Assembly (NCBI RefSeq): GCF_011751865.2
Contig: NZ_CP061770.1
Span: forward strand, 2,232,001 to 2,296,000
Direction: 5' to 3'
Source of the DNA: Salinibacterium sp. ZJ70
Lineage (GTDB): Bacteria; Actinomycetota; Actinomycetes; Actinomycetales; Microbacteriaceae
DNA length: 64,000 nt
The notes beneath the pieces are model-generated. The model was given only the letters and a program-made list of their open reading frames with translations. It was not told the origin of the DNA and made no database searches. Position numbers and translations under genes: made by a program. Below are positions 41,345 through 63,834 of the stretch, piece by piece. The first letter of the stretch is position 1, and the number at the start of each line of letters is the position of its first letter.

Positions 41345-43228
41345 TCAGGCGCTCGGACGGGTCTGAGTCATCCATTCGTGGATGCTCAGCAGGCCCCACA
41401 CCAGCAGGCGGCGGTTCTCGGCACCGCTCAGGTGCGACTCGAGCGCCACGTTCACGGCGTCGTGATCGAGGATGTCGTAGATGGGGCTCGCGCCGTTCAG
41501 CTGACGACGCACGAAGTCGATGCTCTCCCCCTTGAACCAGCTGGCGTCGGGCGACGAGAAGCCCTGCTTTTCGCGACCCGTGACCGACTCGGGGATGTGG
41601 CGGGCCATCGCGTCGCGCAGGATCTGTTTGCCGTCCTTTGTGCGCTGGAAGAACTTCTCGGCCTTGGCGCCCGTCTCGTTCTCGTTGAGACGGGTGACCT
41701 CGGCGAGGTTGTTGAGCTTGTACTTCACCGGCACGCGCATCGCGAAGTCGACGAGGTCGTTGTCCATGAAGGGAACGCGCGTCTCGAGGCCGTGAGCCAT
41801 CGAGATCTTATCCTCGACGATGAAGAGACCGTGAAGGAAGGTCTTCGCCTCGAAGTACAGCGACTGGTTGATGTAGTCCTCGGGCCGGTCCAGCGAACCC
41901 GGGTCGGCCGGGTAGACGCTACGGAAGACGTCGCGCGTCGAGACGCCGGCGACCTCGTCGAGGATCGGTGAGACGAAGGCCTGCAGCTCATCGGGGCGCG
42001 TGAGGCGCTGCCAGTAGCCGTAGTACGCGTCGACGTACTCCTCGAAGCTCGCGTGGTTGGTCGCCCGGTAGTACCGCCACGGGTAGCCGCCGAACAGCTC
42101 GTCGCCGCCAGCTCCCGAGAGCACGACCTTCACGAACTTGCTGGCGAGGCTCGCCGCGTACCAGTTCGGGTAGCTCTGGCCGACGCGCGGCTCCTCAAGG
42201 TGGTGGTTGAGCGCCGAGATCGACCGCTCCATGTCACCCGACTTCAGGACGACCTCGTACTGCTCCGTCTTGAACACGGCCGACATCGCCTCGGCGGCGG
42301 CGCGCTCGTCGAACGAGAGCTCCATGCCCGAGGCGCTGCTCAGGTCGAAGCCGCACGTGAAGGTCTTGAGGTTCGGGATCGACGCCGCAGCGACCGCAGT
42401 GATGGAACCGCTGTCCATGCCGCCGCTCAGGTAGCTGCCGAGCTCGACGTCGCTCAGGAGCTGACGGTTGACGGCCTGAGTGAACAGGCGGTCGAGCTCC
42501 TCGACGTACTCCGCGTGGGTGCCCTCGGGCGACTCCTCGCGGAAGTCGAAGTCCCAGTAGCGGCTGACGGTGAGTCGCGGCGTGGTCGCTCGCAGGTCGA
42601 GGTACCCATACGTTCCCGCCGGGAGGAGCTCGATGTCCTGCAGGAGGGTGCGCTCCGAGATGATGTTCTGGAACGTCAGGTACTCCATGAGCGCCGACTT
42701 GTCCATGCGGCGCACGAACGACGACCGGGCGAGGATCGCCTTCTGCTCGGAGCCGAAGGCGAACACGCCGCCCTGCTCGCTGACGTACAGCGGCTTGATG
42801 CCGTACCGGTCGCGTGCGAGGAGGAGCTTGCGCTCGAGCGAATCGTAGAACCCGACCGCGAACATGCCGTTGAAGCGCAGGAGCGCGTCGGGACCCCACT
42901 CAATGAGGGCGTTCAGCACCACCTCGGTGTCGCTCGTCGAACGGAAGCGATGACCACGCGCCTCGAGCTCCGCGCGGAGCTCTCGGTGGTTGTAGATCAT
43001 CCCGTTGAACGTGAGCGCGTACCGAGAGTCGCGCGACACCATCGGCTGGTGCCCGAGGGGCGACAGGTCGATGATCGCGAGACGCCGGTGCCCCAGACCC
43101 ACGTTCTCGTGGATCCAGTGACCTTCACCGTCCGGGCCGCGGTGGGCCAGGGCGTCGGTCATCGCCTGAAGCAGGACAGGCGAGACGCCGTCCCCGTTGA
43201 GGTTGACGATTCCGGCGATTCCGCACAT
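41345..43228 (-). CDS. Asparagine synthase-like glutamine amidotransferase (first copy)
   Basis: A 627-residue two-domain enzyme. The class II glutaminase part begins MCGIAGIVNLNG with catalytic Cys2 and keeps HRGPDGEGHW and LTFNGMIYNHRELR; the synthetase part has the ATP-binding SYLSGGMDSGSITAVAA and later LSGAGGDELFGGYPWRYY. Homologues in O-antigen loci amidate uronic acids rather than aspartate, and this one lies amid uronic-acid genes, so it probably makes a uronamide. Asparagine synthesis cannot be excluded. In the same operon as the epimerase and glycosyltransferases. Confidence 0.9.
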   Translation of the reverse strand: MCGIAGIVNLNGDGVSPVLLQAMTDALAHRGPDGEGHWIHENVGLGHRRLAIIDLSPLGHQPMVSRDSRYALTFNGMIYNHRELRAELEARGHRFRSTSDTEVVLNALIEWGPDALLRFNGMFAVGFYDSLERKLLLARDRYGIKPLYVSEQGGVFAFGSEQKAILARSSFVRRMDKSALMEYLTFQNIISERTLLQDIELLPAGTYGYLDLRATTPRLTVSRYWDFDFREESPEGTHAEYVEELDRLFTQAVNRQLLSDVELGSYLSGGMDSGSITAVAAASIPNLKTFTCGFDLSSASGMELSFDERAAAEAMSAVFKTEQYEVVLKSGDMERSISALNHHLEEPRVGQSYPNWYAASLASKFVKVVLSGAGGDELFGGYPWRYYRATNHASFEEYVDAYYGYWQRLTRPDELQAFVSPILDEVAGVSTRDVFRSVYPADPGSLDRPEDYINQSLYFEAKTFLHGLFIVEDKISMAHGLETRVPFMDNDLVDFAMRVPVKYKLNNLAEVTRLNENETGAKAEKFFQRTKDGKQILRDAMARHIPESVTGREKQGFSSPDASWFKGESIDFVRRQLNGASPIYDILDHDAVNVALESHLSGAENRRLLVWGLLSIHEWMTQTRPSA

Positions 43229-44362: not shown

Positions 44363-46138
44363 TCAGACGAGGCCAGCCAGCTGCGCCTGCTTGGCGAAGT
44401 CCGGGTGCTGCTCCACCAGTTCGTCGAAGGTGCCTTCGCCCGCGACCACCCCGTCGCGCATGAAGAAGATGCGATCCGAGTGCATGATCGTGGCCAGACG
44501 GTGCGCGACGACGATCTTCGTGATCCCCTCAAGCCCCCGGATGGCTTCCGTCACCTGCGACTCGGTATGGGTGTCGAGTGCACTCGTGGCCTCGTCCATG
44601 ACGAGTACGAACGGCTCGGAGTAGAGGGCACGGGCAATGCCGAGGCGCTGGCGCTGACCTCCAGAGAGTGAGAGGCCGCGCTCACCGACCCGAGACTGAA
44701 GCCCGCCCTCACGGGCCGACACCAGATCCCACAGGCGCGCACGCTCGAGAGCGAGTTGCACCCGCTGAGGGTCGTAGTCGTCGCCCCACGTGAGCGCCAC
44801 ATTCTGGGCGATGCTCGCGTCGAAGAGCGCGACTTCCTGCGGCACGTATCCCATCCGGGAGCGCCACGCAGTGCGCAGCTCCGTCAGCGGAATCCCGTCG
44901 ATGCTGACCGTGCCCGCAGTGGGCTCCAGCAAGCTGAGGAGAAGATCGATCATCGTGGATTTGCCGGAGCCCGATGCCCCGACGAAGGCGACGGTGGATC
45001 CGAGAGGGATCTCGAGCGAGACGTTCTTCACTGCGGGCGTGGCATCAGGCGCATAGCTAAAGGTGACGTTCTTCAGCGTGATGGCGCGAGGGGACTCCGG
45101 CAACGAACGGACGGTGCGCTCGGTGACCTCCGCTTGTCCACGCTCAGCATCCTTCAGCTCAGCAAGCACCTGCTTCGGGAACTCGGAGATCGCGATCATG
45201 TGGGAGACAACGGTCTGAAAGCGAATGATCGAGGGCGCCACCCGGAACCCGGCGAGCGCGAACAGAGCGACCGCGGTGATCGCCTGCTCGAATCCTCCGA
45301 GAAGCAGGCCTGCTCCACCGACCACCACAAAGCCACCGATGAGTCCCGCCTCGAGCGCGTAGCGGGGAAGCTGCCCGAGGAAGTAGATGTTCGCGCGGGC
45401 GCGGGCGCTCATCGTTCGCGTGCGCTCGACGATATCGGCGACCTCGTTCTCCTTGTTACGGAGGGTCACCTCCTTCATCGCAGAGATGATCTCGAGGATG
45501 AGCCGGGAGGTGCGGATCGAGTTCTCGATGTTCACCTCGCCTGCTACGCGCGCGTGGCGGGCGATCCAGAAGTAGAGCACCGCACCGAGGAGGAGCAAAT
45601 ACACCAGTGTCGTCAGCGCCAGGAACGGCTGCACGACGCTCAGCGTGACCACGACGACCACCAGGCTGACCAGCTCGCTCAGCAGCGTGGCGCCAGGGAG
45701 GATGAAGCCGTTTACGGTGATGTCGACGCCACCGTCCGAGAACCGCATGATGTCGCTCGAGTTCTTCTTCAGACGATCGCGCCACGGTGCTCTGAGGTAC
45801 GCACGGAGCAGCCGGTCGCCGATCGCGACCTCATATCGAGGGATTCGCCGAGTTGCCCACCAGGTGACGAGCGTCGCGAGCACGCCCTTCAGCACCATCA
45901 GCACGCAGATGACCGCGATCGCCCAGACGACTCCAGTGTCGTCGAGTTCACCGATGAGAGGAATCGTGACGGGGACACCAGCCGAGATTGGCGCGATGAC
46001 GAGCGCCAGAAGACCGAGCGCGGCCGCGTCGAAAACGGCAAGCGAAGCAAGAAGCCACGAGTAGCGGAGCAGGAAGCTCCGCCCTCCCTCAGGGAAGACC
46101 TCGAGGACTTGCCGGTAGAGCGAGATCACGGACTTCAC
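44363..46138 (-). CDS. ABC transporter, fused permease-ATPase (glycan flippase/exporter-like)
   Basis: A 591-residue half-transporter: about six membrane helices in residues 20-320, then an ATPase with Walker A FVGASGSGKST, signature LSLSGGQRQRLGIARAL, Walker B FVLVMDEATSALD and the switch His in VVAHRLATI. In a glycan locus this layout recalls PglK-type flippases of lipid-linked oligosaccharides, though a polypeptide or lipid exporter is possible. GTG 46138 follows GGAGGGCC at good spacing; TAGGAT (minus strand of 46169-46174) is a likely -10 box. First gene of the minus-strand operon that runs to lhgO. Confidence 0.88.
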   Translation of the reverse strand: MKSVISLYRQVLEVFPEGGRSFLLRYSWLLASLAVFDAAALGLLALVIAPISAGVPVTIPLIGELDDTGVVWAIAVICVLMVLKGVLATLVTWWATRRIPRYEVAIGDRLLRAYLRAPWRDRLKKNSSDIMRFSDGGVDITVNGFILPGATLLSELVSLVVVVVTLSVVQPFLALTTLVYLLLLGAVLYFWIARHARVAGEVNIENSIRTSRLILEIISAMKEVTLRNKENEVADIVERTRTMSARARANIYFLGQLPRYALEAGLIGGFVVVGGAGLLLGGFEQAITAVALFALAGFRVAPSIIRFQTVVSHMIAISEFPKQVLAELKDAERGQAEVTERTVRSLPESPRAITLKNVTFSYAPDATPAVKNVSLEIPLGSTVAFVGASGSGKSTMIDLLLSLLEPTAGTVSIDGIPLTELRTAWRSRMGYVPQEVALFDASIAQNVALTWGDDYDPQRVQLALERARLWDLVSAREGGLQSRVGERGLSLSGGQRQRLGIARALYSEPFVLVMDEATSALDTHTESQVTEAIRGLEGITKIVVAHRLATIMHSDRIFFMRDGVVAGEGTFDELVEQHPDFAKQAQLAGLV

Positions 46139-49952: not shown

Positions 49953-51833
49953 ATGTGCGGCATAGCAGGAGGCTGGGCCCGCGTCGGGAGCTCCGGGGAC
50001 AGCGCGCGGCTGCGTGCAGGTCTCGACGCGATCAGGCATCGCGGACCTGATGACCTCGGAGAGTTTCACTGGGAGGACCCGGTCTCCGGCGCGCGCGTCG
50101 ACCTCGGGCTGACGCGCCTCGCGATTCTGGATCTGAGCTCGGCAGGTCATCAGCCGATGACGCTTCCCGACAACCGGTTCACGATCAGCTTCAACGGCGA
50201 GATCACCAACTACGTCGAGATCCGGCAGGAGCTCATCGACCTGGGCGAGCACTTCAGCTCGCGCACCGACACCGAAGTGTTGCTCAAAGCCTGGGCGCGT
50301 TGGGGCCGCGCCGCGCTCGATCGGCTCGAGGGCATGTTCGCATTCGCGGTGCTCGACACCCGCGAAGGCACTCTCACCCTCGTTCGCGACCCGTTCGGCA
50401 TCAAGCCGTTGTTCTATGCGCTCACCTCCGATCGACTCGTTTTCAACAGCGAGCTCGCAGGGCTGACCGCATCGCTCGGGAGAACCCCGCGACTCGACTG
50501 GCAGACGGCCGTCGACTACCTGCAGTGGGGATCATACGACCACACTTCGGCCACCTTCCTCTCTGGCGTCAAGCAGCTGCGCCCTGGGCACCTTCTGGTG
50601 CTCGATGTAGGGACAGGCGCGACCGGGGGGCCAGAGCGTTACTGGTGGCCCGACGTGCAGACGAGCTTCGACGGTTCCTATGGCGACGGAGTGGAACGCG
50701 TCCGCTCGATGTTCCTTGAATCGGTGAATCGCAACCTGCGCAGCGATGTTCCCCTGGGAATCGCGCTCTCTGGGGGCATCGATTCGTCAGCGATCGTGGG
50801 TGCTGTGCGCCGCCTCGAGCCCGACCTGCCGATTCAGGCTTTCAGCTTCATCGCACCCGGCTTCGCGCGTTCAGAGCACGAGTGGATCGAGCGCGTCGCC
50901 ACGAGCCTGCGAGCGACCTCGCACACCGTGCAGGCCTCCCCCGAGGACCTCGAACACGATCTCGATGACTTGATCCAGTCTCAGGGCGAGCCTTTCGGGT
51001 CCACAAGCATCTACGCGCAGTATCGCGTGTTCCGTCTCGCACGCGAGCACGGCGTGGTGGTCACACTCGACGGACAGGGCGGCGACGAGCTCTTCGCCGG
51101 ATACTCCGGCTACCCCGCCCAGCGTATGCACACCCTCATCGAGTCGGGGAGATGGGCGACGGCCGCCAAATATGCGGGTGCCTGGGCGACCTGGCCCGAT
51201 CGCAGTCTCGGGTTCATGGCAGTGGAGACCGCCGCGCAGTTCGCACCGTTGCGTACACGGCACGCTGTGCGCCGCCCGTTGCGTTCCCCACTGCTGGACT
51301 ATCGGGCACTTGCGGAGCGAGGCGTGGATCTCGGCTTCCCCGCAGTCGGGGCCGAACCCATTCGCCGCGAGCGGCTCAAGACGCATCTGCGCTCGACGAT
51401 GACGGGCTACGGCCTCCCTGCGCTGCTGCGCCACGGCGACCGCAACTCGATGCGGTTCTCGATCGAGAGTCGTGTCCCCTTCCTTGACCGAAGACTCGCA
51501 GAGTTTCTGATGACCGTCCCCGAGGACTGGCTGACGGGCCCTGACGGAACGTCGAAGCGGATCCTCCGTGACGCAGTGCGCGGCCTGGTCGGTGACGAGA
51601 TCATCGATCGGCGCGACAAGGTGGGCTTCGAGACCCCGGAGAACGACTGGCTGTCTCGGCTCGGCTCCCGCACCGTCGACCGCGAACACCCGATCGGGTT
51701 CCTTCGGGCGGGTCGCAGCGACACGCTCACGGGCGGCCTGCGGGAGGCTGAGATCCGTTGGGGAGGCCGCTCACATTGGCGCCTCATCAACCTCCGCCGC
51801 TGGGTGGCGCTCAACGGAGTCGACGCGAGCTGA
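49953..51833 (+). CDS. Asparagine synthase-like glutamine amidotransferase (second copy)
   Basis: A 626-residue enzyme with the same plan as the one at 41345-43228 but clearly different in sequence. Catalytic Cys2 in MCGIAGGWARVG, HRGPDDLGEFHW, SFNGEITNYVEIR; ATP loop GIALSGGIDSSAIVGAVRR; TLDGQGGDELFAGYSGYP. It lies 16 bases after the dehydrogenase gene, so it probably acts on the uronic acid made by that enzyme. A true asparagine synthase role is possible. Confidence 0.9.
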   Translation: MCGIAGGWARVGSSGDSARLRAGLDAIRHRGPDDLGEFHWEDPVSGARVDLGLTRLAILDLSSAGHQPMTLPDNRFTISFNGEITNYVEIRQELIDLGEHFSSRTDTEVLLKAWARWGRAALDRLEGMFAFAVLDTREGTLTLVRDPFGIKPLFYALTSDRLVFNSELAGLTASLGRTPRLDWQTAVDYLQWGSYDHTSATFLSGVKQLRPGHLLVLDVGTGATGGPERYWWPDVQTSFDGSYGDGVERVRSMFLESVNRNLRSDVPLGIALSGGIDSSAIVGAVRRLEPDLPIQAFSFIAPGFARSEHEWIERVATSLRATSHTVQASPEDLEHDLDDLIQSQGEPFGSTSIYAQYRVFRLAREHGVVVTLDGQGGDELFAGYSGYPAQRMHTLIESGRWATAAKYAGAWATWPDRSLGFMAVETAAQFAPLRTRHAVRRPLRSPLLDYRALAERGVDLGFPAVGAEPIRRERLKTHLRSTMTGYGLPALLRHGDRNSMRFSIESRVPFLDRRLAEFLMTVPEDWLTGPDGTSKRILRDAVRGLVGDEIIDRRDKVGFETPENDWLSRLGSRTVDREHPIGFLRAGRSDTLTGGLREAEIRWGGRSHWRLINLRRWVALNGVDAS

Positions 51834-52010: not shown

Positions 52011-52961
52011 GTGTCTCACGCTAATACCGGGCTTACTCCGGCTCGCAGGTTGATCATGGTTCAGCGCATCGAATCCGGGCGTGCGGTCGCGCGTGTCGCG
52101 TCGGAGATGGGCCTCTCGCGCACGACGGCGTGGCGGTGGTGGCGGCGTTTTCGCGACCGAGGGCGGGCGGGACCGGTCGACCGGTCCAATGTTGCCCGGT
52201 CGCATCCGCGGCGGACCGGGCCGTGCCTGCAGACGCGGGTGTGGATCATGCGGCATCTCACCCGCCGCGGGCCGGTGTTCATCGCTGGCAGGCTCGGGAT
52301 GCAGGCGTCGACTGTCGGTCGTGTGTTGCGCCGTCATCGGGCGCCGCTGCTGCGTGAGCTGGACCCGCTCAGCGGGCTCAGGATCCGCGCCACCCGTAAC
52401 TCCGCGCAACGCTATGAACACGATCAGCCCCGCTCGCTTATCCACGTCGATGTCAAGAAACTCGGCCGCATCACGGACGCGGTGAGCACCCCAACCGGAA
52501 ACGAGGGCTCGGCTACGACTACGTCCACACCGTCATCGACGACCAGTCCCGGTCGCCTACGCCGAGATCCATGACGACGAGAAAGGCACCACTGCCGCCG
52601 GTGTGCTGGAACGGGCCATCGCGTTCTATGCGCGCCTCGAAGTGAGGATTGAGCGCGTCATCAGCGACAACGCGTTCGCCTACCGCCACTCGACCGCATT
52701 CCGCAGCGTCATCGACGCGCACGGCATCCAGCACAAGTCCATCCGCCCGCACTGCCCCTGGGGACCAACGGCGAGGTCGAACGCCTAAACCGCACCCTCG
52801 CCACTGAATGGGCCTACGCCCGATCCTGGACCACGAACACCGACCGGGCCGCAGCCTTGCCCGGATGGGTTGACTCCTACAACCTAGACAGGCGCCACCT
52901 CGGCGTCGGAGGCCAACCCCCCATCGACCGAATCAACAACGGTCGAGGTCAGTCCACCTAG
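52011..52961 (+). pseudogene. IS481-family transposase, broken by frameshifts
   Basis: The first part (MSHANTGLTPARRLIMVQRI, helix-turn-helix ASEMGLSRTTAWRWWRR) is in one frame to about 52500. The catalytic core then continues in other frames: GYDYVHTVIDD from 52511, AYAEIHDDEKGTT from 52555, SDNAFAYRHSTAFR, and after 52761 NGEVERLNRTLATEW and GWVDSYNLDRRHLG, ending at TAG 52959. At least three frame changes, so no full transposase can be made by normal reading. The DDE residues are still visible in pieces. I could not define terminal repeats or a target duplication; the right end lies near 52965 and cuts into the DUF2142 gene. Confidence 0.88.
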
Positions 52962-54452
52962 CACCCGCAGTACCGTGATGATCAGTGCGATGAAGATGGC
53001 GGATCCGCCCACCCAGACCGACATCGGCCCGAACGCGACGCCTGTCCACCACCACTCGGCGCCGGCGTCGAGGTTCGTTCCCTGCGCGTCGGCACCCGTG
53101 ACGTACCGACGGATGTTCACCTGAAGAGCGACGAGATGCGCGACAGCGAGGGCACCTCCGATGACGACGAGCTGGGCGCGTGTGAAGGTAATGCGGCTCG
53201 GACCGGGGGTGGTCAGCATCACGAGTGCGAACAACACGATCAGCGGGAACAGGTAACGCGGTTGAAGCTGCTCGCCGACCTGGTTGCCTCCGACAGTCAG
53301 CACGTACACAGGCAGGACGACGAGCACGGCGAAGACACCCGACGCCGCGATGAGCTTCCGACGATCCATCCGTCCGAGCCCTGTGAAGACAACGACGACG
53401 AACGCGGCAACTGCCGCCCAGGGCACGATTGCGGGAAGGCTGGTGTCGAACCATCCGAGGCCCCATGTTCCCCACACACCCGTCCAGAGGAACGGGAGCA
53501 TGAGGAGGTTGTAGGCCAGAAGCGCGAAGCCGGAGTGCCCAGGCGTCTCATCTCCCCCTGTCAGCTGTCCCGTCGGGTCGCCGCCTCCTGGGCTGAAGCC
53601 GACCGCGCCGACGCCGGACTGCGACGCTGTCAGGAAGAAGACGATCGCAAGGGTGATACCCACAGCAGGCAACAGCGCACGCTTGGCCGCCTCGCGCGTG
53701 AGCGGGGCCGCGATGATCATCGCGGTGACCGTCGCCCCGACCGCATAGACCGCGGCGTCGCCCCGCGACCCGGCCGCCATCGTCATCCCGACGAGGTACA
53801 TGGCGCCCAGTACCCAGCGGCGACGACCATCCGTCTCATACCAGCCGAGCATGGCGAGGAACGCGGTCGCAACTCCCATCGTCGCCCAACCGCTCGGGTT
53901 GTTGGAGGCGATGATGAACATCCCGAATGGCACAAGTGTGACGAGCCACGCCCAGAGGAGTGTCTGCCTGCGACGCGGGGGAAGCAGCCACCAGAGCGCG
54001 GTTGCGATTCCGACGAAGATGGCCGCGTTGACCATGCGCATCACCAGTGCGCTGACCTGAAGATCGTCACCTGCGAGCAGCCGCATCGCCGAGTAGTAGA
54101 CAGGCGGGTATTCGCCGGAGAAGTTCCCCCGGGTGGTCTCGAAGAAATCATCGTCGGCCCAGAGCTGTTCCTGACATGCGGCGCTCGCATCGCCATTCTG
54201 CGCGTAGCAGTCGACGTGCTTGAACTCCGTCGGCAGTATGCGAGTGTTCTCGTCAGAACCGGGCTGGCACTGCTCGCTGCCGCCGTTGGCACACCAGATG
54301 CTCACCAGGTGGTAATCGTCATCGGGCCCTGCTCCGATGGGCGACGCGAAAGCCCACGCTCCGAGCGCGAGGAAGGCGAACAGCGGCACGAAGAGTCGCC
54401 GTAGCAGAGTCGCACGCGGAACCGCAGTGCGACTCACATCAGATGTCGTCAC
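52884..54452 (-). CDS. DUF2142 membrane protein, copy A, with C-terminus replaced by IS sequence
   Basis: About 522 residues and 11-13 hydrophobic helices. After helix 1 comes SPIGAGPDDDYHLVSIWC (acidic motif 43-48), then four Cys in the first external loop, RGNFSGEYPPVYYSAM, and later LQPRYLFPLIVLF and NIRRYVTG, all shared with copies B and C. The last 25 codons lie on the IS481 remnant, so the original C-terminus and stop were lost; the tail TVVDSVDGGLASDAEVAPV is IS-derived. The start is unclear: GTG 54452 (overlap with DUF2304 gene) or GTG 54437. DUF2142 proteins have no proven function; see the cluster finding. Confidence 0.85.
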   Translation of the reverse strand: MTTSDVSRTAVPRATLLRRLFVPLFAFLALGAWAFASPIGAGPDDDYHLVSIWCANGGSEQCQPGSDENTRILPTEFKHVDCYAQNGDASAACQEQLWADDDFFETTRGNFSGEYPPVYYSAMRLLAGDDLQVSALVMRMVNAAIFVGIATALWWLLPPRRRQTLLWAWLVTLVPFGMFIIASNNPSGWATMGVATAFLAMLGWYETDGRRRWVLGAMYLVGMTMAAGSRGDAAVYAVGATVTAMIIAAPLTREAAKRALLPAVGITLAIVFFLTASQSGVGAVGFSPGGGDPTGQLTGGDETPGHSGFALLAYNLLMLPFLWTGVWGTWGLGWFDTSLPAIVPWAAVAAFVVVVFTGLGRMDRRKLIAASGVFAVLVVLPVYVLTVGGNQVGEQLQPRYLFPLIVLFALVMLTTPGPSRITFTRAQLVVIGGALAVAHLVALQVNIRRYVTGADAQGTNLDAGAEWWWTGVAFGPMSVWVGGSAIFIALIITVLRVLGGLTSTVVDSVDGGLASDAEVAPV

Positions 54453-54783
54453 GGGACTCGCGCTTCTCGAGTTCGAGCGCCAGTTGCTGGAGCGCCTGGC
54501 GCAACTCGTCGCGCGTTCGCGCGAGCTCAAGAGTGATCTGCATGAGGAGCAGGAACACTACGAAGAAGGCACCGACGAACAGCAGGTTGATGGGCTGCTC
54601 TATGCCGAAGAAACGACTCACTGCGTCGAGCAGACCGGGCCACGCGGACAGGACGATCGCCACCACCACAGCGGCCAGCCAGACGACCGCATACTTCTCT
54701 GGCAGCACATAGGAGCGCAGCAGGAGAATCACCGAGATGAGGAATACGACGGCGAGGGCGATGGCCAGGATCTGAGGAGTCAC
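54439..54783 (-). CDS. DUF2304 small membrane protein
   Basis: A 114-residue protein with three hydrophobic helices (IALAVVFLISVILLL, YAVVWLAAVVVAIVL, LLFVGAFFVVFLLLM) and a C-terminal charged, probably coiled-coil tail (LARTRDELRQALQQLALELE). DUF2304 genes are commonly next to DPM1-like glycosyltransferases, as here, where GTG 54783 overlaps that gene's stop by four bases. It may serve as membrane partner of the transferase, comparable to GtrA in function; this is inference. Confidence 0.85.
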   Translation of the reverse strand: MTPQILAIALAVVFLISVILLLRSYVLPEKYAVVWLAAVVVAIVLSAWPGLLDAVSRFFGIEQPINLLFVGAFFVVFLLLMQITLELARTRDELRQALQQLALELEKRESRDDI

Positions 54784-55523
54784 GAGACTTCACCTGCGTC
54801 ATTGCGCGCCGCCATCTGGCGGAGCTGGGGCGGAACGCTGCGGATCCCTGCGAGAACAAGGATGAACAGAATGCGGGCCGTGTGGAGCATAGCCCGTAGA
54901 GCCGACTGCGAGGGATTGCCGCCGGCGCGTGCGTTCATGCCCACCGGAACCTCACTGACACGAAGCCCTTGACGGGTCACGAGCACGATCGACTCGACGG
55001 TGTCGCCCAGCCACTCGACAGGGTAATGCTGCGCGAACACGCGCAGCGCGCGTGGACCTGCCGCGCGGAAGCCACTCGTGGCGTCTGTGAGCTTCGTCCG
55101 CGCATACAACGAGACCACCCACGCGATGACCCGCTGGATTCCTCGGCGAGCGGCCGACGAGCGGTAGTCACCGACACCGGCGTAGCGACTGCCGATGACG
55201 ACATCGGCATCCTCGAGCGCGTCGATCAGCTCCGCAATGTGCTCAGGGCGGTGTTGCCCGTCGCCGTCGAACTGGACCACAGCCTCGTAGCCGTTCTGCG
55301 CGGCGAATCTGAACGCGGTGCCCATGGCGGCACCCACCCCGAGGTTGATGGCGTGTGACAGCACCCGTGCGCCAGCGGCACGGGCAATACGGGAAGTGTC
55401 GTCTCGAGAACCGTCATCCACCACGACGACGTCATCGAGTGGATGGACCTTCGAGAGCGACTCGAGGACCGATCCGATGGCCGCTTCCTCATTGAGCGCC
55501 GGAATCGCGACGAGATACCTCAC
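54780..55523 (-). CDS. Glycosyltransferase family 2, DPM1-like (polyprenyl-phosphate sugar synthase type)
   Basis: A 247-residue GT-A enzyme: LVAIPALNEEAAIGSVLESL, acidic VVVDDGSRDDT, metal motif VVQFDGDGQHRPEH (DxD), SRYAGVGDYRSSAARRG. It lacks the two large C-terminal membrane helices of GtrB but has one hydrophobic segment (ILFILVLAGI). Enzymes of this kind load a sugar from a nucleotide onto polyprenyl phosphate. The neighbours DUF2304 and DUF2142 would then use this lipid-linked sugar. GTG start 11 bases after the DUF2142-B gene stops. Confidence 0.88.
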   Translation of the reverse strand: MRYLVAIPALNEEAAIGSVLESLSKVHPLDDVVVVDDGSRDDTSRIARAAGARVLSHAINLGVGAAMGTAFRFAAQNGYEAVVQFDGDGQHRPEHIAELIDALEDADVVIGSRYAGVGDYRSSAARRGIQRVIAWVVSLYARTKLTDATSGFRAAGPRALRVFAQHYPVEWLGDTVESIVLVTRQGLRVSEVPVGMNARAGGNPSQSALRAMLHTARILFILVLAGIRSVPPQLRQMAARNDAGEVS

Positions 55524-55534
55524 AACGACCCAGC

Positions 55535-57055
55535 CTAGGCCAGCTGCCGCTCATAGTCTGCCACTCGATCAAGGGCTAGACGGGGCATTCGGAGGGCGAG
55601 GAGCACAAGAAGTCCCGTATAGGCGATCGCTCCCGTCGCCCAGATAGCCATCGGTCCGACCGGGATATCCCACCACCACTCGGGCGACGCATCGAGATCA
55701 AGGCCCCCCACTCCTGCGCCCGTGAGGTAGCGGCGGATGTTCATATGCAACGCGACCGCGTGCGCGACGCTCAGCACGGACGCGACGATCAGAAGCTGCG
55801 CACGGGTCCATGCGATCACAGGCGCACCGAGGGCCAGGAGGCCGCCGAGCATCACGATGAGGGGAAGCAGATACCGAGGCTGAACCTGCTCACCCACGAT
55901 GTGCCCCCCTTGCTGAAGCACGTACACCGGCAGAATCGTCAGCACGAGCACCGTCGCGGCGACAATGATGGACTTGCGCGGATTGAGCTGACCGATGCCG
56001 AGGAACCCAGCCAGCGCGAAAGCAGCGACGGCGCAGACGATGACCACCGCCGGCATGGCCGTATCGAGCCACCCCAGACCCCACTCCCCGAATGCGCCGA
56101 GCCACAGCAGTGGCACGTTCAGCAGGTTGTACGCGAGCTGAGCGAAACCATTCATCGGTTGCAGGTCTCCCGAGCCCCGTCCTCCGCTCATCGGGGCCAT
56201 GTCGGTCATACCCTGCACCGAGCCCGCCTGCCTCGACGCGAGCAGAAACGCGAGAGCGACGAGTCCCATCACTGCGGGAAGGATCGCCTGGATGAAGTAG
56301 CTCTTCTGCCGCCGGAACGTGAACACGAGCACGAGCGCCGTCGCGAACCCGACATACACCGCGGCGTCTCCACGACTTCCGGCCGCCATCACCACAGCGA
56401 GCGCATACAGGGCTCCGAGAGCGATCCGGCGTCGACCTGTCGTCTCGAAGTAGCCGAGAAGAGCGATCCACGCCGTTCCGACGCCGATGACCGCCCACGC
56501 GCTCGGGTTGTTGGAGGCGAGGATGAAGACGCCGAGTGGGATGGTCGTGATGACCCAGCCGATCAGGAGCGTCGATCGACGAGCCACCGGCAGCAGCAGG
56601 TACAGCGCGGTCATCATGGACACGAACAGCACGATCGTGAAGATGCGCATCGCCAAGGCGGACGCCTGGATGTCGAGGCTCGTGAAGAGGCCCGTCACGG
56701 CGTGGTAGACCGGGGGATACTCCCGGGTGAAGTTGCCGCGATCCGTCGCGACGACCGAGTCGAGAAGATCGTCCGAGAACAGCTCGTCCTGGCATGCCGC
56801 GCTCTCGGTGGCGTCTCGCGCGAAGCACGAGATGTCCACGAGTGCGCGGGGCACCAGGTGGACGCCGTCGCCCTCGTCGGGAGCAGACGCACAGGTCTCG
56901 CTCGCGGTCGGGCCGGCGCACCATGAACTCACCAGGTGGTAGTCATCGTCCGGCCCGGCTCCGATCGGCGAGGCGAAGGCCCACGAGACGAGCGCGACGA
57001 ACGCGAGCACCGGCGCAAGCGCCATCACGGGGATCCGTCTCATCGCACGCTTCAT
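55535..57055 (-). CDS. DUF2142 membrane protein, copy B
   Basis: A 506-residue polytopic protein and complete paralog. Helix 1 (ALAPVLAFVALVSWAF) leads to SPIGAGPDDDYHLVSSWC with the acidic motif at 35-40; four Cys stand in the first external loop (SSWC, ETC, ISCF, AACQ). Further shared marks are RGNFTREYPPVYHAV, ASNNPSAWAVIG, GSRGDAAVY, VQPRYLLPLIV and NIRRYLTG. Its cytoplasmic C-terminal end (RLALDRVADYERQLA) shows what copy A has lost. It overlaps copy C by ATGA. Confidence 0.87.
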   Translation of the reverse strand: MKRAMRRIPVMALAPVLAFVALVSWAFASPIGAGPDDDYHLVSSWCAGPTASETCASAPDEGDGVHLVPRALVDISCFARDATESAACQDELFSDDLLDSVVATDRGNFTREYPPVYHAVTGLFTSLDIQASALAMRIFTIVLFVSMMTALYLLLPVARRSTLLIGWVITTIPLGVFILASNNPSAWAVIGVGTAWIALLGYFETTGRRRIALGALYALAVVMAAGSRGDAAVYVGFATALVLVFTFRRQKSYFIQAILPAVMGLVALAFLLASRQAGSVQGMTDMAPMSGGRGSGDLQPMNGFAQLAYNLLNVPLLWLGAFGEWGLGWLDTAMPAVVIVCAVAAFALAGFLGIGQLNPRKSIIVAATVLVLTILPVYVLQQGGHIVGEQVQPRYLLPLIVMLGGLLALGAPVIAWTRAQLLIVASVLSVAHAVALHMNIRRYLTGAGVGGLDLDASPEWWWDIPVGPMAIWATGAIAYTGLLVLLALRMPRLALDRVADYERQLA

Positions 57056-58629
57056 CGACGCACCTCCTGCAGGTCGAGCGCGTCGGCGAGCTGTTCGACG
57101 ACGTCCTCACGTTGTTCGAACGCGCGCTCACGTCGCTCGAGCTCGACAGCGTGATCTCGCCCGAGCGTGAGGACGAGAAGAACGGCGAAGCTCAGCGAGC
57201 CGAGCACCCACACGGTGAGCGGCGATGCGAATCCGCTCCACCACCACTCGATGCTTCCGTCGAGATCGACCCCGAGGTCGTCGAACCCGGTCACATAGCG
57301 CGACAGCTGCAGGAAGAGAGCCACCGCGTGCGCCATCGCGAGCGAACCGATGACGATGAGCCGTTGCGGCCGGCTGAACGTGATCGACTTTCCCTCGGGC
57401 ACCCAGAAGAGCACGCCCGCGAACAGGACGATGAGGGGAAGGAGGTAGCGCGGCTGGAGGTTCTCGCCCACCGCCTCGCCCGCCGCGACCAGCACGGCCG
57501 TCGGGAAGGCGAGAAGGACGATGACGCCTCCGCCGAGAACGAGCGCCTTGCGCACATCCGCGCGGGTCCCGGCAGTGAGACCGGCGCCGAGGAAGCATGA
57601 GAGCGCCGCAACCCAGACCAGCGCCGGCATTGCGGTGTCGACCCACCCGAGCCCCCAGCCCCTGCCGAAGACGCCCATCCACAGACCGGGGATGTCGAAC
57701 AGCGTCGGGATCACCCGTGAGAAGACTGAGACGACGGGGCTGTCTTCTCCTCCCCCGCCACCTCCGCTGGGAAGGCCCTGCGTGATGGCTTCTGGGGGCC
57801 GCGACACCCGGAATGCGAATGCGCAGTAGATGACAGCCGCCAGCGGGAGGATGGACTCCAGCAGGTATCGCCGACTCCGGCGGACCGTCAGCACGATCGT
57901 CGCGACGATGGCGAGTGCCATGTACATCGACGCGTCTCCTCGCGAGCCGGTCGCCATGATGACGGAGAGCGCGAACAGGGCTGCGAGCCCGACCTTGCGC
58001 CACCCCTGGGATTCGAAGAATCCGGCGAGGGCCAGCCATCCGAATCCGACTCCGGCGATCGCCCACGTGCTGGGGTTCACCGAAGCCACGATGAAGAGAC
58101 CGATGGGGACCATGGTGACCGCCCAGCTCCACACGAGCGTGGGGCGCCGATGCGGGGGGAGCAGATAGAAGAGCGCACTCGCCAACGCGGTGAAGATGAT
58201 CGAGATCGCCACACGCATCGTCAGGACCGACACTTCGATGTGATCGCCGACGAACAGGCTCAGGACGCTGTGGAAGAGGGGCGGGTAGCCGCCGTAGAAG
58301 TTGCCGCGCTCCGTCTCGGAGTCAGGCGCACCGGTGAAGTCGATCCCCCGCTGGCATGCGGCGCTCGTGTCGGAGTCGAACGCGAAGCAGGCGACCTCGA
58401 GCAGCGCCTCGGGCACCGTGGCTGAGTCCTCGTCTGCGCTCATCTCGCACGCCGCAGGATCCTCCGTCTCGCACCAGATGCTCACGAGGTGATAGTCCTC
58501 GTCCGGAGACGACCCCACCGGGGAGGAGAACGCCCACGCGATGAGAGTGAGGAGGAGAAGTGCCGGCGCGAGAAGGATGAGTCGTCGGGAGGTCACGAAT
58601 CTCTGCACTCGTCTCGCCACCGAATCCAC
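57052..58629 (-). CDS. DUF2142 membrane protein, copy C
   Basis: A 525-residue paralog and first gene of the DUF2142 group. SPVGSSPDEDYHLVSIWC has the acidic motif at 42-47; four loop Cys (SIWC, AACE, VACF, AACQ) match the other copies; RGNFYGGYPPLFHSV, ASVNPSTWAIAG, GSRGDASMY and LQPRYLLPLIVLF follow. The C-terminus carries a charged helix of about 45 residues (ELERRERAFEQREDVVEQLA) that copies A and B lack or have shorter. GTG start at 58629; 53 bases separate it from the flippase gene upstream, with GGGAAG in that space as a possible ribosome site. Confidence 0.87.
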   Translation of the reverse strand: MDSVARRVQRFVTSRRLILLAPALLLLTLIAWAFSSPVGSSPDEDYHLVSIWCETEDPAACEMSADEDSATVPEALLEVACFAFDSDTSAACQRGIDFTGAPDSETERGNFYGGYPPLFHSVLSLFVGDHIEVSVLTMRVAISIIFTALASALFYLLPPHRRPTLVWSWAVTMVPIGLFIVASVNPSTWAIAGVGFGWLALAGFFESQGWRKVGLAALFALSVIMATGSRGDASMYMALAIVATIVLTVRRSRRYLLESILPLAAVIYCAFAFRVSRPPEAITQGLPSGGGGGGEDSPVVSVFSRVIPTLFDIPGLWMGVFGRGWGLGWVDTAMPALVWVAALSCFLGAGLTAGTRADVRKALVLGGGVIVLLAFPTAVLVAAGEAVGENLQPRYLLPLIVLFAGVLFWVPEGKSITFSRPQRLIVIGSLAMAHAVALFLQLSRYVTGFDDLGVDLDGSIEWWWSGFASPLTVWVLGSLSFAVLLVLTLGRDHAVELERRERAFEQREDVVEQLADALDLQEVRR

Positions 58630-58682: not shown

Positions 58683-59942
58683 TCATGACGAAGACGAGGA
58701 GCGGCGGAGCAGCCCGAGCAGCAGCAGCCCTTGCCCGACCCCGGAGGCGAGTTCCGCGATCCCGAGTCCCCATGCGGCGCCAGCCGCACCCCACAGCGTG
58801 CCGCCAGCGAGCAGTCCGGCGACACCCAGGCCGGAGGCCGCGAGCACGCAGAACATGAAGGTGCGACGTGCACCCAGCGTGATGAGTCCGATCCGGCCGC
58901 ACGCGGTCCCGAGCGCGATGCCGAGGGTCGCGACTCCGAAGCCGAGCGCGGTCGGCAGGTCGATTGCGACCGATTCGCCGAAAAGCAGGCGCGTGAGCCA
59001 TGGCCCCAGCGTCGCGAAGGCCAGCAGTCCGGCCGTACCGAGCCCTGCGTGGAGAATGACGGCGACCCGGATCCGGTGCACGAGGAGCGCTGGCTCGCGG
59101 AGCCCTTCCGCCACCCAACCCTGAAGCGCGTTTCCGAGTGAGGACACCGCGTACTGGCCGATGCGGTAGGTCTTGTCGCCGGAGACGTAGGCTGCGGCCT
59201 GCATGACGGGAGCCACGGCAGCCACGAGCGTGACAGCGAGCGCGTTATACGCCCCGGCTGCCGACTCCGCGACGATCGCCGGGGGGTGCGCGCGAAGCAC
59301 CCCGGCGACCTCAGCTCGCGACACCGAGATGAGTTCGCTACCCGCGATGCGCACATAGACCCACGCCGGGCCGGCGATCATCGCGACGGCGAGGAGGAGC
59401 GGATACCAGATCGCTCCCCCACCGCTCAGAAGCACGACCGTGGCGGCGAGAGAGGCCAGCATGCGCGGCACCACCTCCGCGGCGAGGATCGGCAGAGCTC
59501 GGCCGACGCCGATCCAGTACCAGGTCGGCGAGAGCGCAGCGGCGCTCATGACGATCGCCATCGCGACCGCTTCGCCGCGGTGGCTCGCAGGCGCCACCAG
59601 GTACGCGATGAACGCCGCGGCGATGGCTGCGACGATCCACACCGGCACGCGAGCGTGCAGGCTCGTCGCCACGATCCGGCGCCGGTCCAGCGCGTGCGCG
59701 AGCGCCACCCGCGGAGGAGCGAGCGTGGGGTAGCCGAGTCCTGCGACAAGCGCGGCAAACCCGCCGATCGACTGTCCGAGTGCGATCGCGACCCAGGCGT
59801 CCGCGCCTGCGACGCGCGCGAGGGCGGGCAGGAAGAGGAATGGCGCGAGCAGAGAGAGGAACGGGATACCGGCGAACGCCAGTATGCGGCGCATGAGCCC
59901 TTGCGCGCCGCCCGCAGGAGGCGGAGTGACCGCCTCCGTCAT
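58683..59942 (-). CDS. Polysaccharide flippase-like membrane protein (Wzx/MATE-type)
   Basis: A 419-residue protein with 11-12 hydrophobic helices starting RRILAFAGIPFLSLLAPFLF, and the pattern of the polysaccharide-transport (Wzx/RfbX) superfamily, for example AAAYVSGDKTYRIGQYAVSSLGNALQGW. It would flip lipid-linked repeat units across the membrane. The start ATG 59942 ([15 protein letters not shown]) overlaps the previous stop by ATGA. The locus thus has two export candidates, this and the ABC type. Confidence 0.82.
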   Translation of the reverse strand: MTEAVTPPPAGGAQGLMRRILAFAGIPFLSLLAPFLFLPALARVAGADAWVAIALGQSIGGFAALVAGLGYPTLAPPRVALAHALDRRRIVATSLHARVPVWIVAAIAAAFIAYLVAPASHRGEAVAMAIVMSAAALSPTWYWIGVGRALPILAAEVVPRMLASLAATVVLLSGGGAIWYPLLLAVAMIAGPAWVYVRIAGSELISVSRAEVAGVLRAHPPAIVAESAAGAYNALAVTLVAAVAPVMQAAAYVSGDKTYRIGQYAVSSLGNALQGWVAEGLREPALLVHRIRVAVILHAGLGTAGLLAFATLGPWLTRLLFGESVAIDLPTALGFGVATLGIALGTACGRIGLITLGARRTFMFCVLAASGLGVAGLLAGGTLWGAAGAAWGLGIAELASGVGQGLLLLGLLRRSSSSS

Positions 59943-61318
59943 CGACGCCTCAGCCGACCGCGCACGCGGCGGGCGAGCTCGCCGATGCCGCCGTGGCGCA
60001 GATGATGCCAGGCCATCCTCAGATCGTGGGCGAGACCCGGGCGACCCTCCGGCTCCGCGCGCAGGCCCGACGCCGCGGCGAGCGCCGCGCGAGAACCCGC
60101 GACCTCCACATCGGCCGCTCGTCGCGGCTGGGCCGCGATCGCGAGCAGCGGAGCCATGGCACGCTCCCACACGAAGCGCTCGCGCACCTCGGCCACACGC
60201 TCCCGCGCAGCCGCCGCGAATTCGGCGTCGTAGAGGACCTTTTCGAGCGCGTCCGCGAGCGCCTGAACGTCGTTCGCCGGCACGACCACGCCGAGCGACT
60301 CCTCAGCGACGAGGTCAGCGAAGGAGTCCCCCTCGGTCACGACCATGGGAAGCCCCGCCCACAGGTAGTCGAGGATGCGGGTGCGGAACGAGAACTCCGT
60401 CTCGATGTGCGTGTGGTGGGTCGAGACGCCCGCGTCGGCCTCCGTGAGATGGTTCTGCCGCTCGTCGTAGGGGATCCATCCCTCGTTGAAGATCACTTCC
60501 CGACCGAGCACGCCCAGTTCGGTCGCGAGATCGATCGACTCCTTGACGATTCCCATCGGCGCGACGCCCGGATGCTTCGTGCCGAGGAACACGAGCCGCG
60601 TCTGCGGGCGACGCTCAGCGAGCGACGCGACGGCCCGGATCAGAGTCTGGGGGTCGAACCAGCTGTACAGGCCGCCGCCCCACACGACGATGCGGTCGTC
60701 GGCGGCGAGATTCGGCACCACGCCGCGCAGCACGTCGCGCTCGTGGCGCGGCGGCACGCTCTCGAGGCCGAAGGGAGCGAGCGCGATGAGGCGCTCGAGA
60801 TGCGGGTCGTCCTCGTACGTGACGGGCGAGATCCGGCCGAGCGCGGCGAGTTGGCCGAGGTAGAAGAGCCGCTGGCGCGGCGACGCGCACAGGATGAGGT
60901 CAGCGCGCGACAGCTGCTGGTTGAGCAGCGCCGTCCGCGAGCGGACGAGCATCTCCCAGGTGGCGCGGGGCTGCTCCCGCCCCTGCTCGAGCATCTCGAG
61001 GTGCATGGGGTCGTAGCAGTCGGCGACGACGACCCGGTCGGTCTCCGCGAGCGCTGGGAACTGCTCCATCGCATGACCCTGGAAGACGATGACATCCGTC
61101 TCGCGTTCGAGCTCCGCGAAGGCCGCGGCATCCCCTGGCCGCAGCGACAGCATCCGATAAGGCCCCGGCTCCGCCTCCGCCTCGAGCGTCGATGTCGTGG
61201 CGAGCACCACCTCGTGCCCCGCATCTCCCAGGACACGAGCCATCGAGCGGGCGCGGATCGCCGGCCCCGCCATCCGGGCGCCCAGCTCTCCGCCCGTGAT
61301 GACGAGGACACGTGTCAT
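59939..61318 (-). CDS. Glycosyltransferase, GT4-type
   Basis: A 459-residue transferase. N-terminal [20 protein letters not shown] has the acceptor glycine loop; [20 protein letters not shown] begins the donor half, and [24 protein letters not shown] is the nucleotide-sugar region. The C-terminal 60 residues are basic. The [10 protein letters not shown] context resembles enzymes that add rhamnose or similar sugars in actinobacterial wall glycans; next to rmlA/rmlC that fits, but it is only a hint. ATGA overlaps on both ends. Confidence 0.86.
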
Positions 61319-62175
61319 GACACAAGCCCCAGCAGGTAGCTTCCGTAGCCGGACTTCACGAGCGGTGCCGCGAGGGCTCGCAGCTCGTCGTCGTCGATCC
61401 AGCCGTTGCGCCAGGCGATCTCCTCGATGCAGCCGATCTTGACGCCCTGTCGGTCCTCGATGACGCGCACGAACTCGGTGGCCTGCACCATCGACTCGAT
61501 CGTGCCGGTGTCGAGCCACGCGGTGCCGCGGTCGAGCACGACGACCTGCAGTCGCCCCTCACGCAGGTAGCGGTCGTTGATCGAGCTGATCTCGAGCTCG
61601 CCGCGCGCGCTGGGGGTGATCGACGCCGCGATCTCGACCACATCGTTGTCGTAGAAGTAGAGTCCGGGAACCGCGTAGCGGCTCTTGGGCTCGAGCGGCT
61701 TCTCCTCGATGGAGATCGCGCGGCCGTCCTGGTCGAACTCGACGACGCCGTAGGCGCTCGGGTCGCGCACCTGATAGGCGAAGACGAGGCCCCCGTCGAC
61801 GTCGTTGTGCCCCACGAGGCTGCTGCTGAGGGTGTCGCCGTGGAAGATGTTGTCGCCGAGGACGAGCGCGACCTTCTCGTCGCCGATGAAGTCCTTGCCG
61901 ATGATGAAGGCCTGGGCGAGCCCTTCGGGCTTCGGCTGCGCGGCGTACTCGAGGCGGATGCCGAGATCGCTGCCGTCGCCGAGGAGGCGGCGGAAGGCGT
62001 CCTGGTCCTCCGGTGTCGTGATCACGAGGACCTCGCGGATGCCCGCACTCATGAGCGTCGCCAGCGGGTAGTAGACCATCGGCTTGTCGTAGATGGGCAT
62101 GAGCTGCTTCGAGATGCCCTTGGTGATGGGCCAGAGCCGTGTGCCGCTTCCGCCGGCGAGGATGATGCCGCGCAT
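61315..62175 (-). CDS. rmlA: Glucose-1-phosphate thymidylyltransferase
   Basis: Makes dTDP-glucose from glucose-1-phosphate and dTTP, the first step to dTDP-rhamnose. The 286 residues match RmlA: nucleotide loop [39 protein letters not shown] and the C-terminal [12 protein letters not shown] 62175 ([11 protein letters not shown]) lies 1 base after the rmlC stop. The order rmlC-rmlA with downstream glycosyltransferase makes one operon. Confidence 0.95.
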
Positions 62176-62176
62176 G

Positions 62177-62782
62177 TCAGTCTCTCCATTCCCTGCCGGC
62201 GTACGTGCGTACGTCCTCCCAGAGGGGGAGTGCACCGGCGGCGAGCGCCTCGGCAAGTGTCGGGGCCTGGCGGTCCTTCTCGGAGACGATGACCTCGGCG
62301 AGGTCGATCGGCAGCTCGAGACCGAGGGCAGGGTCGAGCGGGGAGATGCCGTGCTCGCGCCCCGGGCTGAACGTGCTCGAGACGAGGTAGCTCACCGTCG
62401 TGTCGTCCTCGAGGGCGATGAACGCGTGGCCGAGTCCCTCGGCGAGGTACACCGCACGGCGGTCGACGGTGTCGAGCAGTACAGACTCCACGCGTCCGAA
62501 GGTCGGCGAGCCGACGCGGATGTCGACGATGATGTCGAGAGCAGCACCACGCGTCGCGGTGACGTGCTTCGCCTGTCCGGGCGGGACGTCGGCGTAGTGC
62601 ACGCCGCGCAGCACCCCGCGCTTCGAGACGGAAGTGTTCGCCTGACGCAACCCGATGCCCACGCCGAACTGCTCGTCGAGGAGATCACCCCGGTACCACT
62701 CGAGGAAGACACCGCGGTCGTCCTCCCACTGTCGAGGGGTCAGCTCATATGCGCCAGCGATGCCGAGAGGCCGAATTTCCAC
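62177..62782 (-). CDS. rmlC: dTDP-4-dehydrorhamnose 3,5-epimerase
   Basis: Cupin-fold epimerase of 201 residues acting on the dTDP-4-keto-6-deoxyglucose intermediate of rhamnose synthesis. Seen are [24 protein letters not shown] with the catalytic His region, [11 protein letters not shown] and [13 protein letters not shown] 62782 ([14 protein letters not shown]) is chosen because TATGCT stands six bases before it; GTG 62788 is close by. The partner genes rmlB and rmlD are not within this window. Confidence 0.92.
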
Positions 62783-62788
62783 CCGCAC

Positions 62789-62794
62789 AGCATA
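62789..62794 (-). promoter_or_regulatory. -10 box TATGCT for leaderless rmlC operon
   Basis: Minus-strand TATGCT, then GTGCGG (6 nt), then GTG at 62782. This would drive the long minus-strand operon down to the DUF2142 genes. Confidence 0.5.
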
Positions 62795-62817
62795 CCGACG
62801 GCCCGCTGAGTGGCACT

Positions 62818-63834
62818 TCAGACAGGCTGGACCAGGTCGCGCAGCACGTCTTGCGCGCCGAGCCCGAACTCGCGATAGCGCCCAGTGCGCCACTCCCGCA
62901 GCACGGGCACCACTCGAGCAAGCCGGACCGCCGGCAGGCGCTCGCGAGCCAGCTCGTGTGAGAGCTTCTCGCGCGCGGAGGCCAGGTGCTCTGCAGGGAT
63001 CCGGTCACCGAACTCCTCGACGCGCGTGACGAGGGATCGAGCACGCCGGACGAGCCTCTCATTCCGCTGCGTGCGGGGCTCTCGAAGACGGGCGACGCGC
63101 GTCGACCAGTCGAGCTTGCGCGCCCCGATCTGATTGCGCCCGTGCTGTCGATAGTCGACGACGCTCTCCCGGACGACGACTGTGCGCCCGAGCGCACCGG
63201 CGACGACCGCCATCCACTCGTCATGGATCCAGCCGTCGGGGATCGGGAGCGCCGCCCGCACCAGTTCTCGTGTCACGGCGGCGGTCGCGCCCGTCACGAG
63301 GTTGCGGCGCAGCAGCGCATCGAAGCCGCGGCCCGCATCGATCTCGGCGAGCTCGCTCTCCCGCACCCCCAGCGCCTCGAAGAGCGTCACTCCGAGCGGT
63401 TCGCCCGCGGCGTCCACCAGGCGGGCGTCCGCATGCATGAGCCCCGCGTCGGGGTGCGCGGCGAGCGCCGCGAGGCTCACGGCGATGCGCTCGGAAACCC
63501 AGCGGTCGTCCTGGTCGGAGAGCACGATCACGTCCCCCGTTGCGGCGGCGAGCGCCCGCGCGAAGTTGCCGGCGACGCCGAACGGCTCCGGATGCTCGGC
63601 CGGGTCCCGCGTCAGGATGCGGAGTTCGAGCGGCGCTCCCCCGGAGCGGTGGTGCTCGTCGACGAGCTCGCGGACGATCGAGAGCGTCGCGTCGCGCGAC
63701 GCATCATCGCCCACCACGAGCTCGTGAGGAGGCACGGTCTGGCTGAGGATCGACGCAACCTGCTCGGCCACGAACTCGGCTCCCTGGTAGGTGCACATCA
63801 CCACGGAGATGCGCGGGGAGTCGCTCAGAACCAT
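62818..63834 (-). CDS. Glycosyltransferase family 2 (rhamnosyltransferase-like)
   Basis: A 338-residue GT-A transferase: PRISVVMCTYQGAEFVAEQV, VVGDDASRDATL, IVLSDQDDRWV with the acidic DQDD metal site, and GWIHDEWMAVVAGALG acceptor region. The family includes WbbL/RfbF-like rhamnosyltransferases, and rml genes stand next to it. Start ATG 63834 (MVLSDSPRISVV) has TAGCAT seven bases upstream; the longer frame to 63930 would overlap the divergent gene. Confidence 0.88.
   Translation of the reverse strand: MVLSDSPRISVVMCTYQGAEFVAEQVASILSQTVPPHELVVGDDASRDATLSIVRELVDEHHRSGGAPLELRILTRDPAEHPEPFGVAGNFARALAAATGDVIVLSDQDDRWVSERIAVSLAALAAHPDAGLMHADARLVDAAGEPLGVTLFEALGVRESELAEIDAGRGFDALLRRNLVTGATAAVTRELVRAALPIPDGWIHDEWMAVVAGALGRTVVVRESVVDYRQHGRNQIGARKLDWSTRVARLREPRTQRNERLVRRARSLVTRVEEFGDRIPAEHLASAREKLSHELARERLPAVRLARVVPVLREWRTGRYREFGLGAQDVLRDLVQPV

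Follow-up and report, generated by a model that had tools for sequence, protein, structure and literature searches.

We analysed a 64,000-nucleotide stretch (the window; contig NZ_CP061770.1, positions 2,232,001 to 2,296,000) of the 2.84 Mb, single-contig genome of Salinibacterium sp. ZJ70, and conclude that three DUF2142 paralogs (A, B and C), a GT2 glycosyltransferase and a DUF2304 small membrane protein encoded there are probably the core of a system that glycosylates the cell wall across the membrane, similar in kind to GacI-GacJ-GacK-GacL or WpsA-WpsB-WpsG-WpsJ. An earlier note, made from the sequence alone, had named these genes, and Pfam bore the names out (scores in Table 1; the DUF2142 cut-off is 30.1 bits). 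At E ≤ 0.001 the whole genome contains three DUF2142 matches and one DUF2304 match, all in this cluster. In the proposed mechanism the GT2, stimulated by DUF2304, would load a sugar onto polyprenyl phosphate at the inner membrane face, and a neighbouring Wzx-like protein would flip either this lipid-linked sugar or an oligosaccharide extended from it. The DUF2142 proteins would then receive the sugar at an outward site, located by topology and presumed to be catalytic, formed by a D-[DE]-x-x-H motif together with conserved arginines, and would pass it to a surface glycopolymer, which nearby dTDP-rhamnose genes suggest may contain rhamnose. The window holds features of a Gac/Wps-type system: a GT2 with an adjacent DUF2304, a Wzx-type flippase (recognised through a relative) and a predicted GT-C enzyme.

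The idea that DUF2142 proteins are GT-C-like agreed with the predicted structures of B and C. AlphaFold2 models, built from input alignments that were thinned by hand from the available relatives to 113 and 91 sequences, had pLDDT values of 91 (B) and 92 (C). Among the 50 entries listed after structural re-alignment, GT-C glycosyltransferases occupied ranks 1-49 for B and 1-41 for C, with ArnT, Pmt4, AftD and ALG12 among the top matches. The likeness to these and other GT-C enzymes lies in the predicted fold, two adjacent acidic residues in the first external loop and conserved outer-side residues; the difference is that across those ranks identity in the structural alignments is only 5-15%, and that the DUF2142 profile had no sequence-level match among PDB chains at E 10. 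Foldseek alone gave no significant match, and a viral structure library gave none at E ≤ 0.001. A GT-C fold for B and C is therefore supported as a prediction from models. PIG-U is likewise GT-C-like, and we take Pfam to place DUF2142 itself in the GT-C clan.

We aligned 281 DUF2142 proteins to examine conservation and membrane orientation: three from the window, 51 from other loci (69 locus open reading frames (ORFs) minus 18 duplicates) and 227 database relatives, all of them close and most apparently from the same family. Predicted inner segments carry 0.219 Lys/Arg per residue and outer segments 0.032, with the inner value higher in 281/281 rows, and this bias places the acidic motif on the outside, as the earlier note had supposed. 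By the alignment start offsets, D36 of B falls on residue 55 (5f15) or 56 (5ezm) of ArnT and D43 of C on residue 56 in both; if no gap intervenes, the DUF2142 acidic pair thus lies within one residue of the ArnT pair D55/E56 described in PMC7801869. The same source describes arginines that bind lipid phosphate in GT-C enzymes, and by analogy the outer DUF2142 arginines may do so.

Conservation of the acidic motif is beyond chance. D36 and H40 (B numbering) occur in all 276 rows that have letters at these positions, and residue 37 is D in 233 rows and E in 43, acidic without exception. Because position 38 is not invariant (D in 261/276, P in 10), the core of the PDDDYH or PDEDYH motif is D-[DE]-x-x-H. 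The other shared motifs were also found, namely RGNF (RGNFSGEYPP in A, RGNFTREYPP in B, RGNFYGGYPP in C), QPRYL (QPRYLFPLIV in A, QPRYLLPLIV in B and C) and four loop cysteines. Outer-side residues conserved at ≥97% include R137, N183, R228, W329, Q392, R394, R442 and W462, among others, and position 331, also on the outer side, is acidic in 276/281 rows; two further conserved residues are R360, which faces inward, and W25, within the first transmembrane segment. Relatives that bear names come from Microbacteriaceae (among them Pseudolysinimonas, Microcella and Glaciihabitans) and a few Demequinaceae. Our own DUF2142 profile re-detected the family in only 5/13 loci from outside Microbacteriaceae, which puts distant DUF2142 proteins far from the set whose motifs were counted. 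One relative (P0173) is annotated with both DUF2142 and PF10101, presumably DUF2339.

The loop cysteines are residues 49, 57, 77 and 88 in A, 46, 55, 77 and 88 in B, and 53, 61, 81 and 92 in C. All four, as expected from the earlier note, were present in 265/281 rows; exactly the first two were absent in 14, one row reads CCxC, and one short protein of 373 residues lacks all four. Joint absence of the first pair suggests the disulfide pairs 46-55 and 77-88, which would probably brace the first external loop. C46 is absent in 12/51 locus proteins, and a tree clade of 12 rows contains all five of those that were listed by name; loss of the first pair was therefore probably one evolutionary event. 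This divergent clade (with proteins of loci L015, L059, L060, L061, L065 and L066) fits the group without the first pair, and several of its genes share clusters with ordinary DUF2142 genes.

The three paralogs are mutually 40-46% identical. In a quick tree, made without bootstrap and with 24 of the 227 database proteins, each fell in a separate clade with proteins of other genomes; the smallest starred sets held six rows for A (SH-aLRT 100), six for B (99) and two for C (100). We reject a recent tandem duplication on both grounds. Old, retained copies favour different jobs, and three separate lineages probably mean three different transfers. There is a fair chance, somewhat short of even, that the proteins instead form an assembly line, in which the GT2 and DUF2304 only prime an oligosaccharide on polyprenyl phosphate and the DUF2142 proteins divide among them its polymerisation, its joining to a wall polymer and the addition of a side sugar. 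For lactococci, PMC10821137 describes cytoplasmic transferases that lengthen the GlcNAc-P-C55 product of WpsA/WpsB before it is flipped, and PMC12599335 assigns a proposed polymerase (WpsI) and the proposed ligase (WpsJ) to DUF2142; PMC10821137 differs, giving WpsH as the polymerase and WpsI as a chain-length regulator. The lactococcal proposal makes an assembly line as plausible as three decorations, and the separate clades, the Wzx-like gene and the further glycosyltransferases flanking the cluster also fit it. Three copies are not the rule, however: of the 132 family genomes with DUF2142, the count reaches three or higher in at least 13.

A fuller version is doubtful, and we offer it tentatively: DUF2142 would be a disulfide-braced GT-C family whose three lineages act in sequence on one donor pool charged by GT2/DUF2304, an extracellular line that polymerises, attaches and decorates an uncharacterised cell-wall glycopolymer of the family without the RgpF rhamnan route. 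RgpF had no match at E ≤ 0.001 across the whole genome, while the Lactococcus lactis control matched; we therefore class the system with these decoration systems by kind, and not as a rhamnan pathway.

A tie between DUF2142 and GT2/DUF2304 in other genomes, predicted in the earlier note, held within the family and failed across the phylum. Among 299 Microbacteriaceae genomes, 105 have both DUF2142 and DUF2304, 55 DUF2304 only, 27 DUF2142 only and 112 neither (odds ratio 7.9, P = 5 × 10−16, counting related genomes as independent). With one genome per genus, a set assumed to be G000-G084 without G058, plus G106, the counts became 34/17/5/29 (odds ratio 11.6, P = 2 × 10−6). For 150 listed DUF2142 hits, a listed DUF2304 (150 hits likewise) lay within 15 kb of at least 120, within 5 kb of at least 94 and within 1 kb of at least 41. 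A genome of another genus (G236) keeps the order C, DUF2142, GT2, DUF2304, A; its first and last DUF2142 proteins fall in the C and A clades and the middle one outside the B clade. A scan for related loci in named genomes returned a single distant locus. One very small genome (G015, locus L063, a single 0.93 Mb contig) keeps DUF2142, GT2, DUF2304 and rml-like genes together, and may show the system in minimal form.

At phylum level, we found no association in 296 genomes (counts 14/32/105/145, odds ratio 0.60, P = 0.19), and a general phylum-wide tie is rejected. Thirteen non-window genomes have both genes, within 15 kb on one contig in 5/13; our own GT2 profile found a match around 7/13 DUF2142 genes from genomes without DUF2304. 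Taken with the family result, this makes the partnership a feature of Microbacteriaceae clusters and not of DUF2142 as such. The phylum null, together with the family genomes that carry either gene alone, would suit a more sceptical reading, which we consider improbable: that DUF2142 takes its donor from other glycosyltransferases, or uses polyprenyl-diphosphate-linked units, and is merely a neighbour of GT2/DUF2304. Oligosaccharyltransferase (OST) enzymes use diphosphate-linked donors, and they scored about one Z unit below ArnT for both B and C. Against it stand the listed hits within 1 kb, the window genes, which share 4 bases or lie almost end to end, and the close pairs in those five genomes outside the family.

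The proposed partners of DUF2142 resemble a synthase and its helper. The window GT2 matches the dolichol-P-mannose synthase 5mlz (residues 3-204, E = 4.7 × 10−8), and at 118.2 bits against the NCBIfam PpgS model (NF058614, cut-off 370) it is not a PpgS equivalog by that score. PF10066 is the sole Pfam family of the window DUF2304 protein, and the Pfam scan gave it no GtrA match. A GT2 relative adjoins DUF2304 in 10/10 other-genome loci fetched around DUF2304; in 20 further loci, chosen mostly for carrying the cluster and sharing two genomes with the first set, tblastn found DUF2304 in 11, with a GT2 match within 90 bases in 11/11. Seven more DUF2304 loci were drawn from the phylum: six were chosen for their long frames, of 348-385 residues, and the frame of the seventh has 174. 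Each of the six long frames proved to be a fusion of DUF2304 followed by GT2 (five by our own profiles and the sixth by Pfam placement, two being confirmed by Pfam), and the seventh locus has adjacent genes. Such fusions speak for DUF2304 as a GT2 helper.

According to PMC8327497 and PMC10821137, GacJ-like proteins, which assist GT2 synthases, typically carry a DUF2304 domain, and GacJ and WpsB act as GT2 activators or anchors. WpsB raises WpsA activity, a WpsB-WpsA fusion is functional whereas the reverse order is not, and the last WpsB helix touches WpsA in the published model (PMC10821137). The coiled-coil tail that the earlier note described in DUF2304 may be the counterpart of that helix. 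DUF2304 is therefore better read as a GacJ/WpsB-type helper than as the GtrA-like flippase first proposed. A GtrA/GtrB/GtrC-type system with DUF2304 as the flippase-like component is very unlikely and we reject it: a small hydrophobic protein does adjoin GT2 and GT-C genes, and a true GtrA_DPMS_TM gene lies some 7 kb past the window end, but DUF2304 lacks a GtrA match, its described relatives and all six long-frame loci tie it to GT2, that GtrA gene is outside the operon, and flipping can be done by the adjacent Wzx-like gene.

That Wzx-like neighbour is, by its relatives, the better flippase candidate. Its own only match is to DUF3464, below cut-off. A 90% identical relative (P0231) scores 30.8 bits for Polysacc_synt (cut-off 28.2), a second relative (P0234) scores 27.8, narrowly under, and many relatives bear the annotation O-antigen/teichoic acid export membrane protein. 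The GtrA_DPMS_TM gene (L004:17952-18509, approximately window position 70952; 94.4 bits) adjoins a purK-like gene, so named from its ORF, and is an alternative flippase. An ABC half-transporter that combines membrane and ATPase parts in one protein (44363-46138, minus strand), PglK/MsbA-like from its ORF, is a second flippase candidate of the region. The genome's six ABC2_membrane matches all lie outside the window, so that the locus showed no gene for a Wzm-type exporter.

The cluster is part of a surface-polysaccharide locus with dTDP-rhamnose supply (Table 1). On the minus strand the order toward downstream is RmlC-like, RmlA, GT4, Wzx-like, DUF2142 C, DUF2142 B, GT2, DUF2304 and DUF2142 A, and from GT4 to A the genes overlap by 4 bases (as do GT4 and the Wzx-like gene) or are separated by gaps of at most 53 bases, with the starts chosen in this analysis. 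For A, a TTG at 54530 is probably too far upstream, and a start near 54437-54452, joining DUF2304, looks more likely. GT4 relatives occur near DUF2142 in several loci of Microbacteriaceae genomes. The RmlC-like protein scores 134.7 against NCBIfam rmlC, under the cut-off of 155.75. Directly past the window end are a GT2, an RmlB-like gene (PF16363) and a LytR-CpsA-Psr protein, with RmlD-like and GT4-like genes from ORF reading.

Table 1. Features of the DUF2142/GT2/DUF2304 cluster and its neighbours, in window coordinates.
Feature	Position	Strand	Basis
DUF2142 paralog A, predicted GT-C glycosyltransferase	52884..54437	-	Pfam DUF2142 201.1 bits; clade with other-genome proteins
PDDDYH motif of A, first external loop	54309..54326	-	ORF reading
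DUF2304 small membrane protein, putative GT2 helper	54439..54783	-	Pfam DUF2304 73.9 bits
GT2, probable polyprenyl-phosphate sugar synthase (DPM1/GacI/PpgS type)	54780..55523	-	Glycos_transf_2 83.1 bits
DUF2142 paralog B, predicted GT-C glycosyltransferase	55535..57055	-	Pfam DUF2142 179.7 bits
Four-cysteine stretch of B, first external loop (C46, C55, C77, C88)	56792..56920	-	281-row conservation
PDDDYH motif of B	56936..56953	-	ORF reading
DUF2142 paralog C, predicted GT-C glycosyltransferase	57052..58629	-	Pfam DUF2142 191.7 bits
PDEDYH motif of C	58489..58506	-	ORF reading
Wzx-like flippase candidate	58683..59942	-	By close relative; start chosen at ATG 59942
GT4 glycosyltransferase, start uncertain	59939..61519	-	Pfam Glyco_trans_1_4 48.1 bits
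rmlA, glucose-1-phosphate thymidylyltransferase, start uncertain	61315..62256	-	NCBIfam RfbA 466.6 bits, cut-off 360.65
rmlC-like dTDP-4-dehydrorhamnose 3,5-epimerase, start uncertain	62177..62893	-	Pfam dTDP_sugar_isom 175.8 bits

Next to A lies a transposase-like piece (52011-52574, plus strand) with an HTH_23 match above cut-off and an IS481 leucine zipper at 19.6 bits, just under the cut-off of 22.2. A short ORF (52603-52788, plus strand) reads as its continuation, and the two are probably a degraded insertion element. The polysaccharide region also holds two asparagine-synthase-like genes, one (49953-51833, plus strand) with a PF00733 match and the other (41345-43228, minus strand) judged from its start and length only.

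Pfam still labels DUF2142 and DUF2304 'predicted membrane protein' and 'uncharacterized'. In a full-text search of the open-licence literature, a role for DUF2142 was discussed only in lactic acid bacteria and DUF2304 only in a review, and we found no earlier treatment there of the DUF2142/GT2/DUF2304 set in actinobacteria. The system is largely anticipated by the lactococcal work; what the window adds is an actinobacterial member in which three DUF2142 lineages of old standing occur together. The GT-C models are confident and their outer site is defined, which yields testable residues, and the cluster is a genetic handle on surface glycopolymers, with DUF2142 in 132/299 sampled family genomes. 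Wall sugars of this kind can matter for phages: deletion of Corynebacterium glutamicum decoration genes is described as blocking phage Cog (PMC9671496).

Among known systems, GtrA/GtrB/GtrC differs in that the small protein of the window operon is DUF2304 and not of the GtrA family. In the actinobacterial systems PpgS/Rv3632/Rv3779 and C. glutamicum ppgS/cgp_0393/cgp_0658, as described in PMC9671496 and PMC3485146, a GT2 synthase and a small membrane protein feed a wall-decorating membrane glycosyltransferase. The best NCBIfam model of the window GT2 is PpgS, though below cut-off; the C. glutamicum control matched DUF2304 and not DUF2142, unlike the window genome. The group A carbohydrate system GacI/GacJ/GacK/GacL shares a GT2, a GacJ-type helper, a Wzx-type flippase and a GT-C enzyme (PMC8035078, PMC8327497), but it has one GT-C enzyme against the window's three, and PMC8035078 lists GacL under Pfam PMT-2, not DUF2142. 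The lactococcal pellicle system WpsA/WpsB/WpsG/WpsJ, with WpsI, belongs to a different phylum, and the window differs from it in having three DUF2142 proteins of separate lineages and no RgpF match. The two share a GT2 with a GacJ-type helper, a Wzx-type flippase, DUF2142/GT-C enzymes and dTDP-rhamnose supply (PMC10821137, PMC12599335), and the L. lactis control matched both the DUF2142 and DUF2304 profiles, as the window genome does.

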